Positions 34,043 through 40,487 of a stretch of DNA of 64,000 nt are shown here, in pieces. How positions within the stretch are numbered: the stretch's first letter is position 1; every line of letters begins with the position of its first letter. The stretch is from assembly GCA_945870425.1 (NCBI GenBank), contig CAMBSD010000003.1, positions 1 through 64,000 on the forward strand, given 5' to 3'. Below the pieces are notes generated by a model. The model ran no database searches and had not been told where the DNA came from. It saw nothing but the letters and a program-made list of their open reading frames with translations. The position numbers and the translations under genes are program-made. The stretch is from Chitinophaga pinensis (GTDB lineage Bacteria; Bacteroidota; Bacteroidia; UKL13-3).

Positions 34043-37033
34043 TTAATACCTTGGGTCGGGCTTGGGTGCCAAGCGGGCCATCTTAATTACCTCTAAACTG
34101 CAAAAGCCAAATTCGTCCACCACCTTACCCTCAATCAAATACACACCACGGCCCGCAAAGGGATACTTTTTGATAGATTGCGAGAAGTTGGTAGTATCAA
34201 AAAAGTGGTTTTCACAATCATAAAAAGTACCAAAAGCCATATACTCTCCTTTTACCGTCTTCACACCTTTTTGCGCCACATAATTTCCTACAATGCGTAT
34301 GGTTTTATGGAGGTGTTTATCAAAATCTTTGGCTAACACATCTCCACGGTATGGGGTTATAAGCAAATCAAATTGTGAGATAGAAACAGGGAAACCAAGT
34401 ATTTCAATTTCATCGTACGCATCCTCCACAATATCGTGTGCTAACAAAGGCAAAGTATAATTTTTAGCAGGTCGGCTAAACATACTACTCTGCCATACCT
34501 GAGGAATAAAAAGGCTTTGCTCCATTGGGGCAGTGCCTATAAGCATTTCTTTGATTGTCGTTTTTTTATCCGCATGCATATATATCTGCCAAAGCAGATT
34601 CTTTTTACCCGAACCTGTAAATCTAAAGGCACCCACTTTTACCAAAATCTTCAATTGCTCAATGCTAATGGAAGTACGTTCAATAAAATCATACAAACTC
34701 AAAAACACACCATTCTGTTTGCGCTCGTGTAATATCAACTCTATGGTTTTTGCTTCAAGGCTTTCGATATGCACAAAACCTATATACACATCATCGCCAT
34801 AAATATGGGTGTTTTTCTCTGAATAGTTTACACAAGGCAAATGAAGATGCGCTCCTGTTTTTTTCAACTCATTAAAATACACCCAAGTTTGGTAAAAACC
34901 TCCAAAATTATTGATTACAGCCACCATAAACTCTTTTGGGAAATATGTTTTCAGGTACAAACTTTGGAAGCTCTCCACAGCATAAGATGCGGAGTGTGCT
35001 TTGCTAAATGAGTATCCCGCAAAACTCTCTATCTGCCTCCAAATTTCTTTGGTAATATTTTCAGGATATCCCTTCTCATGGCAATTAGAAAAAAACTTAT
35101 CGATGATGCGTTGAAACTCCGCTTTTGAACGAAACTTGCCACTCATGGCTCTGCGCAACACATCCGCATCAGCCAAATCTAAGCCTGCAAAATGATGACA
35201 AACCTTTAGCACATCTTCTTGAAACACCATCACACCATAGGTTTCTTCCAACTGTTCTTTCATTACGGGATGCAAATAATTAATGGCTTCGGGGTGATGA
35301 AAACGATGGATGTATTCTCGCATCATACCCGACTTGGCCACACCAGGACGAATGATTGAACTAGCAGCCACCAAGTGTATGTAGGTATCGCATTGCAGCT
35401 TTTTTAGCAAGCCCCGCATGGCAGGACTTTCAATATAAAAACAACCAATGGAGTCGCTAAGCTTCAATTGCGATTTTACTTTCTCATCGTTTTTAAAGGC
35501 TTGCACATCATGAATGTCTATTCGTATTTTTTTATTCTGCCACACCAATTCGGCCGCATCTTTTATATGCCCAATGCCTCGCTGCGAAAGGATATCGAAT
35601 TTCTCAAAACCTATATCCTCTGATATGTACATATCCCACTGCACCGTTGGCAATCCCACGGGTGGCAGGTCTAGCGCAGAGTACAGGTAAATAGGTTCAT
35701 CCGAAATAAGCACACCCCCAGCATGGATGGAGCGGTGATTAGGAAAGTCTTTTAACAATTCGCCTACCTTCAAAATATTTTTGATGATGGGTGCTGAAGC
35801 ATCAGCTTTTTCAGGAAAATTTGCAAGTATATCAATTTCGGCTTTGGGCAAACCATATACTTTGCCCAACTCGCGGTATATGGAGTTATCTTTAAAAGTG
35901 GAGATGGTACCTAGCAAAGCTGTGTAGTCACGTCCGTAGCGTTTAAAAATATAGTCGTGTACTTGTGGCCTTTCTTTCCAACTATAGTCAATATCAAAGT
36001 CGGGAGGTGATGTTCGTTTGGGGTTTAAAAATCGCTCGAAATACAAATTCAATTCAATAGGGTCAACATCTGTAATCCTAAGGCAATAGGCCACAACCGA
36101 GTTGGCTCCACTTCCTCGCCCCACATGATAAAAGCCTTTAGACATTGAATAGCGAATGATATCCCACGTGATTAGAAAGTAGGCCGAAAAGCCCAATTTA
36201 TCTATAATCTCCAACTCTCTTTTCACCCTATCAAATGCCACTCTATTGTGCAAACCATATCTGTATTGAACCCCATCAAAAGCCAATTTTTCTAACAATT
36301 GCTTGTCATCATAACTACTTGCCGAATAGATCTTTTTATTTTTATGGGTTTTAAAATCAAAAACAATATTGCACTCTTCAATCATTGCCTTTGTGTTGTT
36401 TATAATGAAAGCGTAATGCTGGCAGGCATCTATCAGTTCAGCATCTGTCTTAAAATACTCATCGTCTTGGGCACTGTGTTCTGCTGTTAATCGACTTAAA
36501 AGTAAATTGTTTTCGATAGCGCGCAAATGCTTGTGCAAATCAAGCCTCGACTTTCCAGCAAAGGTTACAGGATGCTTTAATACCAATTTGTTTTTGATGG
36601 CTGAAATATCTTTAAACAAGAGCTTATTCAACTCATTGATGCGAATGCCAATGCGTTCATGTGCTTCTAATTTTTTAGGGTATTGTGTATATGGATAAAT
36701 GATAAACGTATCACGCAAAGCAGCTGTTTGTTCGCTTAAAGACATGCCATATAAGTTGTGATTTGAAAGCATCTTATTGATTTCGGCCACACCTGCTGCA
36801 TTTTTGGCAAGTGCTGTAAACAGTAAATGATTGGCCTCCATAAACTCAATGCCCGCTAATGGTTTTATGCCATCTTCGTTGCAGCGTTTTACAAACTCCC
36901 AAATGCCTGTAGAACAATTGATGTCGGTCAAACCCATTGTGGTAAGCTTGTAATGTTTGGCCGCAGCCATAATATTATCAATACTTAGCGTGCCATAACG
37001 AAGGCTATAAAATGAATGAATGTTCCAAAGCAT
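34043..37033 (-). CDS. Short DnaE-type DNA polymerase III alpha subunit
   Basis: A 996-residue C-family polymerase, shorter than replicative DnaE (about 1,160). The N-terminal PHP domain opens NIHSFYSLRYGT, with Asn where the first metal-binding histidine would be, so PHP nuclease activity may be weak or absent. The catalytic aspartates lie in PDFDID (Asp345, Asp347); the third should be near FEKFDIL around residue 470. Helix-hairpin-helix and OB-fold regions follow. Short DnaE next to dinB is the mutagenic-repair arrangement of many bacteria without UmuC (compare ImuB-DnaE2). It starts 36 bases after dinB and should be co-transcribed with it. Confidence 0.9.
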   Translation of the reverse strand: MLWNIHSFYSLRYGTLSIDNIMAAAKHYKLTTMGLTDINCSTGIWEFVKRCNEDGIKPLAGIEFMEANHLLFTALAKNAAGVAEINKMLSNHNLYGMSLSEQTAALRDTFIIYPYTQYPKKLEAHERIGIRINELNKLLFKDISAIKNKLVLKHPVTFAGKSRLDLHKHLRAIENNLLLSRLTAEHSAQDDEYFKTDAELIDACQHYAFIINNTKAMIEECNIVFDFKTHKNKKIYSASSYDDKQLLEKLAFDGVQYRYGLHNRVAFDRVKRELEIIDKLGFSAYFLITWDIIRYSMSKGFYHVGRGSGANSVVAYCLRITDVDPIELNLYFERFLNPKRTSPPDFDIDYSWKERPQVHDYIFKRYGRDYTALLGTISTFKDNSIYRELGKVYGLPKAEIDILANFPEKADASAPIIKNILKVGELLKDFPNHRSIHAGGVLISDEPIYLYSALDLPPVGLPTVQWDMYISEDIGFEKFDILSQRGIGHIKDAAELVWQNKKIRIDIHDVQAFKNDEKVKSQLKLSDSIGCFYIESPAMRGLLKKLQCDTYIHLVAASSIIRPGVAKSGMMREYIHRFHHPEAINYLHPVMKEQLEETYGVMVFQEDVLKVCHHFAGLDLADADVLRRAMSGKFRSKAEFQRIIDKFFSNCHEKGYPENITKEIWRQIESFAGYSFSKAHSASYAVESFQSLYLKTYFPKEFMVAVINNFGGFYQTWVYFNELKKTGAHLHLPCVNYSEKNTHIYGDDVYIGFVHIESLEAKTIELILHERKQNGVFLSLYDFIERTSISIEQLKILVKVGAFRFTGSGKKNLLWQIYMHADKKTTIKEMLIGTAPMEQSLFIPQVWQSSMFSRPAKNYTLPLLAHDIVEDAYDEIEILGFPVSISQFDLLITPYRGDVLAKDFDKHLHKTIRIVGNYVAQKGVKTVKGEYMAFGTFYDCENHFFDTTNFSQSIKKYPFAGRGVYLIEGKVVDEFGFCSLEVIKMARLAPKPDPRY

Positions 37034-37069: not shown

Positions 37070-38215
37070 CTAACGTGTTTTATATCCCCCTTTTGTTACG
37101 GCACCTTTGCCATACCAATGTCTAATTTGGTCTAATGCTTTGTATAAATTCACTTGCTCTATGCTATCTTCAAACAAATCGATTTGTTGCGAACCGTGCA
37201 CCAGATTGCTTACTTTAACGCCAATTAATCGTACTAACAAACGCCTGTCATACAACTTATGAAGCAGCTCTTTAGCTTTGGCTAATATGATGTGGTCGTA
37301 GGATGTGTAAGGCACACGTGCTTGAACGGTATAGGTTTGAAAATCGGAATAGCGCAATTTTACGGTCACTGTAGCGCATAGTTTTGTTTGTTTCCGCAAA
37401 TCGAAGCAGATGCCTTCCACCATGGTATTCAAACATTGCTGAAGCAATTTCATATCGGTGGTATCCACCTGAAAAGTTTGCTCACTGCTTATCGACTTTC
37501 GCTCGTGGTAAGGCAATACAGGTCTATTGTCAATACCATTGGCTTTTTCCCAAATGATTTTACCATTTTCACCCAATACTTTTTGTAAAAGCTCCACATG
37601 AATATTGGCAAGGGTTTCAATGTGCACAATCCCCATGTCCCTTAAAATATGGTAGGATTTATCGCCTATGCCAGGTATTTTTTTTATGGATAATGGGTTA
37701 AGAAATTGATGTATGAGTGGCCTGGCAACCTGCTTTTCACCATTGGGTTTGGCTTCGCCTGTAGCTATTTTCGAAATGGTTTTGTTCACTGATAAGCCAA
37801 ATGAAATAGGCAAACCTGTTTGCTTCATTATTTTTTGCCTCAACTCATGTGTCCATTTGTATGAACCAAAAAAGCGATCCATGCCCGATATGTCTAAGTA
37901 ATGCTCATCTACACTTGCTTTTTCAACCACGGGTGCTGCATCTTCAATAACGTCCGTTACTTGGTGCGAAAACCTACTGTATTTATCCATATCACCACGC
38001 AGCCAAATGGCATCTGGACATAACCTGCGAGCTAATTTGCCCGGCATGGCCGAGTGTACCCCATATTTCCTTGCCTCATAGCTACAACTTGCTACCACCC
38101 CTCTGTCCGAAAAGCCACCAATGATAACGGGCTTACCTACTAATGAACTATTCTCAAGCCTTTCAACCGACACGAAAAAAGTGTCTAAATCCATGTGTAC
38201 GATAGTTCTTTCCAT
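37070..38215 (-). CDS. dinB: DNA polymerase IV (Y-family)
   Basis: A 381-residue translesion polymerase. The catalytic residues are Asp8 and Asp10 in HMDLDTFF and the SVDEHYLD block near 101-108; the palm is followed by a helix-hairpin-helix thumb (IPGIGDKS) and a little-finger domain. A clamp-binding motif QIDLF is at 344-348, about 35 residues from the end. The His in DEHYLD, where most have Ala, is a small variation. It is first in the dinB-dnaE operon, divergent from the S24 repressor across a 97-base gap with operator half-sites, so damage-inducible expression is likely. Confidence 0.93.
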   Translation of the reverse strand: MERTIVHMDLDTFFVSVERLENSSLVGKPVIIGGFSDRGVVASCSYEARKYGVHSAMPGKLARRLCPDAIWLRGDMDKYSRFSHQVTDVIEDAAPVVEKASVDEHYLDISGMDRFFGSYKWTHELRQKIMKQTGLPISFGLSVNKTISKIATGEAKPNGEKQVARPLIHQFLNPLSIKKIPGIGDKSYHILRDMGIVHIETLANIHVELLQKVLGENGKIIWEKANGIDNRPVLPYHERKSISSEQTFQVDTTDMKLLQQCLNTMVEGICFDLRKQTKLCATVTVKLRYSDFQTYTVQARVPYTSYDHIILAKAKELLHKLYDRRLLVRLIGVKVSNLVHGSQQIDLFEDSIEQVNLYKALDQIRHWYGKGAVTKGGYKTR

Positions 38216-38238
38216 TTTTTTACTTGTTTATTTTTATG

Positions 38239-38269
38239 TTTGACATTATTATTGTCAAATAATTGACAA
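38239..38269. promoter_or_regulatory. Three operator half-sites between dinB and the S24 repressor
   Basis: TTTGACA (38239-38245) and TGTCAAA (38253-38259) form a perfect inverted repeat with a seven-base spacer. A third half-site TTGACAA (38263-38269) makes a second inverted pair with TTGTCAA (38252-38258), four bases apart. The arrangement lies mid-gap between divergent starts at 38215 and 38313, as expected for a repressor that controls both itself and the dinB-dnaE operon. Confidence 0.65.
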
Positions 38270-38291
38270 TAAATATATCATTTTAGGTTTT
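38263..38291 (+). promoter_or_regulatory. Candidate promoter of the S24 repressor
   Basis: TTG (38263-38265) within the third half-site, an 18-base spacer, then TAGGTTTT (38284-38291), one mismatch from TAnnTTTG. Repressor bound at the half-site would cover the -33 element. Confidence 0.45.
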
Positions 38292-38312
38292 AGATAAACA
38301 AGAAAAAAAACT

Positions 38313-39026
38313 ATGTACTTGAACACCAATTTGAAATTTTTGCGTACCCGAAATAAACTCACACAGCAAGATTTGGCAAATGCTTTAGAGGTAGGGCGTT
38401 CTGCTCTCAATGGCTACGAGCATCAGCAAAGTGTGCCCACCATCGAAACGATTTTGAAAATATCAAGCTATTTTAAAATAAGCGTTGACACTCTTTTGAA
38501 AGTGGACTTGAAGAAGCTACCCGAATCCAAAATATCTGAACTTGAAAAAGGCATTGAAGATTATATCAAAGGAAAATACCTGCGCATTGTCTCTACCACA
38601 GTTAACAAAGACAATGAAGACAATATTGAATTGGTTCCTGTAAAAGCGCAAGCAGGCTATGCCAAGGGTTATGCCGATAATGAATTTATCAGCAAACTGC
38701 CACGCTATTACCTTCCTTTTTTAGATAAAAACAGAAAATATAGAACCTTTGAAATCAAAGGTGATTCGATGCTGCCCATCAAAGAAGGGGGCTTGGTAAC
38801 CTGTGAATATGTAGAGGATTGGATGGATATTAGAAACGGTCTTTGCTATGTTATTTTATTAAAAGATGATGGCATTGTGTTTAAGCGAGTTTTTAATGAA
38901 ATACAAAAAGAGAAAAGACTTATTTTGGTTTCAAACAATGTGATGTATAAACCCTACACAATAAAGATTGAGGATGTAGTGGAGGTATGGAAATATGTGA
39001 TGGACTATGCTAAAACATTGGAATAA
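38313..39026 (+). CDS. LexA/CI-like repressor (XRE helix-turn-helix plus S24 peptidase)
   Basis: A 237-residue two-domain regulator. Residues about 6-60 are an XRE/Cro helix-turn-helix (LTQQDLANALEVGRSALNGYE), and about 105-237 an S24 self-cleaving domain with Ser152 (GDSMLP) and Lys191 (IVFKRV) as the dyad. An Ala114-Gly115 pair in the linker is the likely autocleavage site. RecA-triggered cleavage would relieve repression of the divergent dinB-dnaE operon. In Bacteroidota such XRE-S24 proteins often stand in for LexA. Binding to the half-sites at 38239-38269 is inference. Confidence 0.9.
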   Translation: MYLNTNLKFLRTRNKLTQQDLANALEVGRSALNGYEHQQSVPTIETILKISSYFKISVDTLLKVDLKKLPESKISELEKGIEDYIKGKYLRIVSTTVNKDNEDNIELVPVKAQAGYAKGYADNEFISKLPRYYLPFLDKNRKYRTFEIKGDSMLPIKEGGLVTCEYVEDWMDIRNGLCYVILLKDDGIVFKRVFNEIQKEKRLILVSNNVMYKPYTIKIEDVVEVWKYVMDYAKTLE

Positions 39027-39548
39027 TGCCTGAATTGAAAATTACCTAAACTTCCAATTCTCCCATTTGTCTTGAATGTCGGGGCTTACAATCCAATCCG
39101 GGTCTTGGGGTTTGCCTACGCTTGATGTTTAGTACAAATTAGCAATCACACATTGAAGGTTTAGGGACATGACCAATACCGCAAACAGACCAAAAAGTTA
39201 TTGATGATTTGATTGCCTCATCTAAGACTCTTTTTCATTTGTAATCCGTTTCTCTTCCTATGGCTTGGCGATAGACTCCAGAAAGTTTGGATATCGGGAT
39301 TGTTTATGTCTTTTTTATATTTCTAAATTTATCAACATTCATAGTTGCTTTGTTTCTCAGTCAGCATGAAAGTGTTAAACCCATGCACAATAAAAAAGTT
39401 TTTAACAGGCTTATTATTTAATAAATATTAAGGATATGACTGATTTTTCTTAGACTTTTGTAAAATAATTGTCATAGCAAATTATTAAAAAAACTTATCA
39501 TTTAATTATCGTGTTTAAACAGATATTACTTATAAATATATAAAACAA
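39027..39548. other. Intergenic stretch with possible gene remnant
   Basis: No full gene in 522 bases. A 28-codon coding-like frame on the minus strand sits at 39042-39128, and around 39228 the words CTCTTTTTCATTTGTAA recall the block repeated near 30970, 31614 and 32396. From 39360 on the sequence is AT-rich, fitting the promoter region of the fasciclin gene. Confidence 0.5.
39042..39128 (-). pseudogene. C-terminal coding remnant, family unrecognised
   Basis: The minus-strand frame reads VGKPQDPDWIVSPDIQDK and ends WENWKFR before a TAA at 39044-39042. Amino acid composition (Trp, Pro, Asp rich) is unlike noise in AT-rich DNA, but only 28 codons stay open. I do not recognise the family; it may be chance. 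Confidence 0.3.
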
Positions 39549-40487
39549 ATGAAAAAGAACATTTTTAAAACGGCTTTATTAAGTCTAACGTTTGGTGCCT
39601 TATTAATTACATCATGCAAAAAAGATGATGACAAAACCACCACTAACACTACTCCTGCTTTAAAAAGCATTTATGAAATTGCAAAATCTGATACTAGTTT
39701 TAGTATTTTGGTAGCTGCAATAGACAAAACAGGTTTAAAAGAAACATTAACCAATGCTGGAACTTACACTGTTTTTGCGCCAAACAACGCTGCATTTAGA
39801 AAAGAAGATTTTAGTGTAGAAATAATAAACGCAATGACTAATCCAGATCAAATTTTAGAATTAAAAAACGCTTTACTTTACCATGTTCTAGGATCAAAAG
39901 TAAAATCTACTGAAGTGCCTAATGCTTATGTAGGAACATTGTATTTGGTAAATGGAAATGGTGTTTCTTTGCGTACCGCGAATAATCCTGTAAAATTAAA
40001 CAATGAGTCAAATGTAGTGGCTGCTGATATTGCTGCAAGCAATGGAATTATTCATGTAATTGATATGCCATTATCTCCGCAATCAGTGGTTGATATTGCT
40101 GCAAACAATTCTGCATTTACATCATTAGTAGCAGCATTAGGAAAAGCAGAATTAGTAAGTACATTGGAAGAAAGTGCTTCTATTACCGTATTTGCTCCAA
40201 CCAACGATGCGTTTGATGCCATTAGTTTCAAACTAGCTGATTTTACCAAAGAGCAATTAACACCCATTTTAACATCGCATGTTTTAGGTTCACAGGTTAG
40301 ATCATCGCAAATAAAGAATGGCGATATGGTTACCACTTTAAATACCAATACCAAATTAACATTTAATACTTCAGCTGGTGTTAAATTTAGTGGTGGCAAT
40401 GTGTCTGATGTATCTGTAACCACTGCAGATATACAAGCAACAAACGGTGTGGTGCACGTAATTAATAAAGTAGTTTTACCTAATTAG
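39549..40487 (+). CDS. Lipoprotein with two fasciclin domains
   Basis: A 312-residue lipoprotein: signal peptide with lipobox ITSC (cysteine near 23) followed by KKDDDK and a Thr-rich linker. Two FAS1 domains span about 40-172 and 176-312; each has the H1 motif (TYTVFAPNNAAF and SITVFAPTNDAF) and an H2 region (NGIIHVIDMPL and NGVVHVINKVVL). FAS1 domains mediate adhesion or surface interactions. The KKDDD after the cysteine resembles the Bacteroidota lipoprotein export signal, so surface exposure is possible. Confidence 0.92.
   Translation: MKKNIFKTALLSLTFGALLITSCKKDDDKTTTNTTPALKSIYEIAKSDTSFSILVAAIDKTGLKETLTNAGTYTVFAPNNAAFRKEDFSVEIINAMTNPDQILELKNALLYHVLGSKVKSTEVPNAYVGTLYLVNGNGVSLRTANNPVKLNNESNVVAADIAASNGIIHVIDMPLSPQSVVDIAANNSAFTSLVAALGKAELVSTLEESASITVFAPTNDAFDAISFKLADFTKEQLTPILTSHVLGSQVRSSQIKNGDMVTTLNTNTKLTFNTSAGVKFSGGNVSDVSVTTADIQATNGVVHVINKVVLPN

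Follow-up and report, generated by a model that had tools for sequence, protein, structure and literature searches.

What controls the error-prone polymerase genes dinB and dnaE in a Chitinophaga pinensis genome (GenBank assembly GCA_945870425.1), and through which DNA sites? We analyzed a 64,000-nucleotide stretch of this genome (contig CAMBSD010000003.1, positions 1 to 64,000; here, the window), in which an S24 repressor gene lies divergently from a dinB-dnaE pair, with an intergenic region at 38216-38312 between them. Domain searches and open reading frames (ORFs) agree with the gene layout given in a first-pass annotation made from the sequence alone. That annotation had also read the intergenic region as the operator of an SOS-like mutasome composed of three half-sites. 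The operator itself is upheld: going by the sequence, the S24 repressor very probably controls both itself and the divergent dinB-dnaE genes through it. The three-half-site anatomy is not, since relatives show two dyads. The region likely serves both gene sets as an operator, where two dimers of a non-canonical LexA of the CI type occupy two 17-bp dyads.

Anatomy of the operator

The intergenic region contains the perfect palindrome TTTGACATTATTATTGTCAAA at 38239-38259, the TTTGACA-N7-TGTCAAA of the first-pass annotation. It is the window's only match at 0 to 2 mismatches (at up to 3 mismatches there are 7 matches against 9.8 expected, the other six all with 3 mismatches). A third half-site, TTGACAA, begins at 38263. 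Comparing the upstream regions of related repressors revealed its partner, a fourth half-site (TATCA, 38276-38280) that the annotation had not listed. The third half-site thus forms the left half of a second dyad, and the operator comprises two dyads of 17 bp each, separated by 6 bp and with centers 23 bp apart. As annotated, the third half-site overlaps the -33 element of a candidate repressor promoter (Table 1), which was recognized by the promoter consensus of Bacteroidota.

Table 1. Features of the operator region and its flanking genes (window coordinates)
Feature	Position	Strand	Description	Context
Operator site 1	38241-38257		Perfect dyad TGACA-N7-TGTCA	25 bp from dinB start codon
Gap between dyads	38258-38263		AATAAT, 6 bp	Length preferred among relatives
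Operator site 2	38264-38280		Imperfect dyad TGACA-ATAAATA-TATCA	Overlaps -33 element of repressor promoter
Candidate repressor promoter	38263-38291	+	TTG (38263-38265), 18 bp, TAGGTTTT (38284-38291)	
S24 repressor gene	38313-39026	+	237 aa; HTH_3 (PF01381) + Peptidase_S24 (PF00717)	
dinB	37070-38215	-	Y-family polymerase	Divergent from repressor gene
dnaE	34043-37033	-	dnaE-type polymerase III alpha subunit	Downstream of dinB

The repressor gene has its own operator and adjoins error-prone polymerase genes, and this divergent arrangement is kept in many relatives, including the Pedobacter locus L013. The window dinB is the sole IMS-family (Y-family polymerase) match in the genome (2.96 Mb in 43 contigs). 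The flank opposite dinB-dnaE holds a 312-aa ORF whose start resembles that of a lipoprotein. After the repressor gene, about 520 bp (39027-39548) hold no listed ORF of at least 80 aa; the next gene is at 39549.

Spacing and specificity of the tandem dyads

We scored gaps of 0 to 15 bp in upstream regions of related repressor genes by the similarity among the four half-sites, with no letters fixed and ties shared. Gap 6 came out on top in 25.2 of 45 regions and in 35.1 of 78 non-redundant regions, where the runner-up gap reached 5.5. The preference persisted with one region per genus (22.2 of 53; runner-up, 3.6; z = 14.2 against 30 dinucleotide shuffles) and with one region per family, counting nine Bacteroidales-titled loci as one (18.2 of 33; runner-up, 2.2; z = 12.1 against as many shuffles). 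When inner spacers of 5 to 9 bp were compared, a spacer of 7 with a gap of 6 gave the highest mean score. Gap 6 also led in 7.3 of 18 dinB upstream regions apart from repressor promoters (runner-up, 1.3), a count that leaves out all loci from the 147-genome searches below. The letters themselves vary: one upstream pair from genus g3 reads TGTTA-N7-TAACA-N6-TGACA-N7-TATCA, and other relatives carry TGATT-type, TGACC-type, or TRCTA-type pairs. In genus g3 (L050, L047, L046, and L057), dinB has its own 17-6-17 pair a few bases from the ATG, apart from the repressor's pair.

The pattern TGWYA-N7-TRWCA-N6-TGWYA-N7-TRWCA occurs at two places in the 2.96-Mb genome, both upstream of S24 repressor genes, with none for the reversed control. 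At exactly 1 mismatch the genome has no further place, the two places with 2 mismatches both lie within ORFs, and up to 3 mismatches yield 34 places versus 20 in the reversed control. The core TTGACA-N7-TGTCAA occurs at three genome places, and the two besides the operator lie in unrelated ORFs. Across 147 genomes, the TGWYA tandem was found at 13 places in 12 genomes, and its reversed control was zero in every genome. Twelve of the 13 lie directly upstream of S24 repressor genes, and the last (in G029) lies between dinB-dnaE and an SRAP gene. The TRCTA tandem gave 11 places in 10 genomes (reversed control, 0). S24 repressors account for 7 of these, dinB for 3 (an exonuclease/GIY-YIG gene shares one site, and another is 293 bp distant), and umuDC for 1, each site lying upstream of its gene, with dinB and umuDC named by inspecting translations. 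Pooled, 19 of the 24 places are directly before S24 repressors and 5 are at dinB or umuDC. Because many of these places were among the sequences from which the patterns had been derived, the search tests specificity and not sensitivity; the five non-repressor places were unseen at that stage.

As a gap control, we searched the TGWYA form in 61 genomes of the family, including all 12 that carry the gap-6 form. Nothing was found at gap 5, and gap 7 returned only two 12-bp satellite arrays. The arrays consist of TGACATTT units and lie at G017:C176:26598-26674 and G022:C1:853504-853592.

The repressor, its regulon, and alternative readings

The N terminus of the window repressor is a CI-type helix-turn-helix (HTH) domain (PF01381, 2.3e-11) and not a LexA winged HTH. 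The residues for self-cleavage are intact (scissile A114-G115, catalytic S152 and K191), and 49 of 50 distinct relatives retain all four. An AlphaFold model with a mean pLDDT of 74, and low values for the linker and the residues near the cleavage site, matched LexA S24 domains in Foldseek, with N-terminal matches to P22 c2 and SinR-type HTH domains, and a sequence search of solved structures returned HTH matches only. Recognition helix and half-site type go together: all 7 repressors whose helix ends in G-x-YEE pair with TRCTA sites, and all 22 others pair with TG-type sites (Fisher P = 6e-7, ancestry ignored). This count covers 29 of 35 passing rows, with six omitted by hand (L027, L035, L042, L069, and L090, with AT-rich or unclear best matches, and the near-duplicate L062).

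The first-pass annotation had proposed scanning the genome for a wider repair regulon, but the tandem searches revealed none: no tandem besides the two exact ones exists at 0 or 1 mismatch. At recA, the match TGATAATATGAGTGACA runs over the start codon, and the upstream regions of recA in all 8 genomes examined from genera g3 and g8, which have the same half-site type, lack a TGWYA site; recA is therefore unproven as a target. We surveyed 31 recA loci including that of the source genome (30 of 57 matches in relatives were examined, and 30 of the 31 loci were readable). TGWYA-type sites were seen only in the source genome, over the ATG, and in G082 at -106, and TRCTA sites were seen at -89 in G002 and G032. 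With these tools, the evidence for the operator at recA is unconvincing, and the visible regulon in this genome appears to be the mutasome and two repressors.

The second of these repressors (G000:C3:228476-229171; L045:5375-6196, minus strand) is 51% identical to the window repressor. It has a tandem operator of its own at 229203-229242, near-identical to one in the congener G001, and no polymerase beside it. This paralog might bind the window operator instead of, or alongside, the neighboring repressor. Its overall identity, equal operator geometry, and similar half-site type (TGTTA/TGTCA) speak for such binding, which we nevertheless regard as unlikely: the half-sites in the window are TGACA/TGATA, the recognition helices as compared also differ (RSALNGYEHQQ in the window repressor versus RAKLNSYENGI), and repressor genes tend to bear their own site type.

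Still less probable is the annotated anatomy, in which a third half-site adjoins a single full dyad, TTTGACA-N7-TGTCAAA, and dimers could take alternative N7 and N4 registers. The letters are indeed present, but TATCA completes a second 17-bp dyad, and in relatives both dyads are complete and lie 6 bp apart; on these grounds we rejected this anatomy. The annotated second pair with half-sites four bases apart (TTGTCAA-ATAA-TTGACAA) is a mere junction between the tandem dyads.

An unrelated regulator with a 17-bp box, such as GlnR or TnrA (box TGTNA-N7-TNACA), is very improbable. In a viral collection, a single contig matched the TGTTA tandem (L215:3962-4001), in what by inspection is a glnR-like/glutamine-synthetase-like control region; we take it for the look-alike box of an unrelated regulator. 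In the 147 genomes, however, nitrogen genes account for none of the 24 places, every one of which belongs to an S24-repressor or Y-polymerase gene. It is hardly credible that the dyads arose by chance in an AT-rich promoter and that TTGACA persists solely as a -33 element: single dyads of the same degeneracy are common (92 in the genome versus 62 in the reversed control; 14 of 15 inspected loci within ORFs; 6 places versus 3 with AT-only spacers), but the tandem is found at two places versus none in this genome and 24 versus none in the 147, with an optimum of exactly 6.

A proposed two-dimer switch and its precedents

If two dimers of the window repressor occupy the two dyads, the spacing of the centers (about two helical turns) would put both on the same side of the helix. 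Contact between them is then probably made by their S24 domains, as it is between CI dimers bound to OR1 and OR2 of the lambda right operator (OR). Repressor at site 2 would block its own -33 element, giving autorepression, and site 1, 25 bp before dinB, would serve to repress dinB. Upon DNA damage, a RecA filament would trigger cleavage at Ala114-Gly115 and release the dimer pair, after which dinB-dnaE and the repressor would be expressed. Cooperative binding is suggested by the spacing and by analogy with lambda. The kept spacing with changing letters suggests that mutation-making enzymes are under a lambda-like switch. We lean slightly toward extending this to Bacteroidota SOS repressors at large, whose two-dimer operators would share a fixed 17-6-17 frame while the half-sites have drifted (TGWYA, TGAYT, and TRCTA). 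The mutasome would then answer to a phage-type switch that works cooperatively and responds more sharply than one SOS box would.

Several points weigh against the two-dimer operator. Around 43 of the 78 upstream regions have a best gap other than 6, and several lack a recognizable pair. We identified no clear promoter on the dinB side. The second repressor may cross-bind, since its operator is similar. In published electrophoretic mobility shift assays on Bacteroidetes SOS repressors, a mutation in one arm or the other of a lone 13-bp motif was enough to abolish binding, so pairing may be unnecessary for it, and the main-text parts of that study do not mention cooperativity (PMC8565304).

That 2021 study (NAR; PMC8565304) makes the annotated remark that the damage box is poorly defined in this phylum outdated, because the window repressor belongs to the kind it describes. 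According to its main text, Bacteroidetes SOS repressors are non-canonical LexA proteins with two motifs, GGA-N5-TCC and CTAA-N5-TTAG; the study reports the class, that it is autoregulated and probably derived from phage, and its link to dinB/dnaE; it also mentions promoters with two or more motif instances and some regulators with diverged motifs. The window repressor resembles these proteins in its HTH_3 and S24 domains, its Ala-Gly and Ser-Lys residues, its probable autoregulation, and its link to error-prone polymerases. In contrast, its half-site (TGWYA-N7-TRWCA) is unlike both published motifs, and by inspection neither GGA nor CTAA is found on the plus strand of 38216-38312. Because its operator fits neither motif, we class the repressor as a variant of this group rather than as an ordinary member. 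The TRCTA form can accommodate the published CTAA core within the identical 17-6-17 frame. Fixed tandem spacing is not reported in the main-text parts of PMC8565304 or in the other literature searched, supplements aside. As far as that literature extends, the TGWYA half-site type, a 17-6-17 frame common to different half-site types, and same-genome paralogs with differing half-sites appear to be new.

Close relatives of the repressor were not found in the viral collection, which gave two weak partial matches. The TACTA-TAGYA tandem occurs there in seven contigs, and TACTA-TAGTA occurs in four contigs at gap 6 and in none at gap 5. In at least one contig (L220:12976-13015; IMGVR_UViG_2541047447_000003), TACTA/TAGTA dyads with a 6-bp gap are flanked by a short HTH gene on one side and by a CI-like HTH-S24 gene on the other.

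The spacers of lambda OR are 6 to 7 bp. The window operator shares with OR the tandem 17-bp dyads, the similar spacing, a CI-type HTH, an S24 domain, and a repressor promoter within the operator. It differs in having two sites where lambda has three and in being chromosomal, beside polymerase genes and without cro. The 17-bp length of the CI operators (PMC10742460) and cooperativity at OR1/OR2 (PMC3317979) are documented. HdiR and UmuDAb, which govern minimal SOS regulons, likewise are S24 repressors controlling little beyond error-prone polymerases, with different S24 proteins and different operators (PMC8565304, PMC11332147). FddR of Francisella is another captured phage S24 repressor, autoregulated and divergent from genes that include translesion polymerases, but it has a GTG-N11-CAC motif and belongs to a lambdoid clade (PMC13148647). 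The 2021 proposal of a captured phage repressor rested mainly on domain structure in its main text (PMC8565304); a conserved lambda-like tandem operator would lend it independent support. Such an operator predicts cooperative, threshold-like induction of mutagenic polymerases, and its geometry could serve to locate operators and damage boxes where the letters have diverged or motif searches have failed, including those of paralogs in the same genome.
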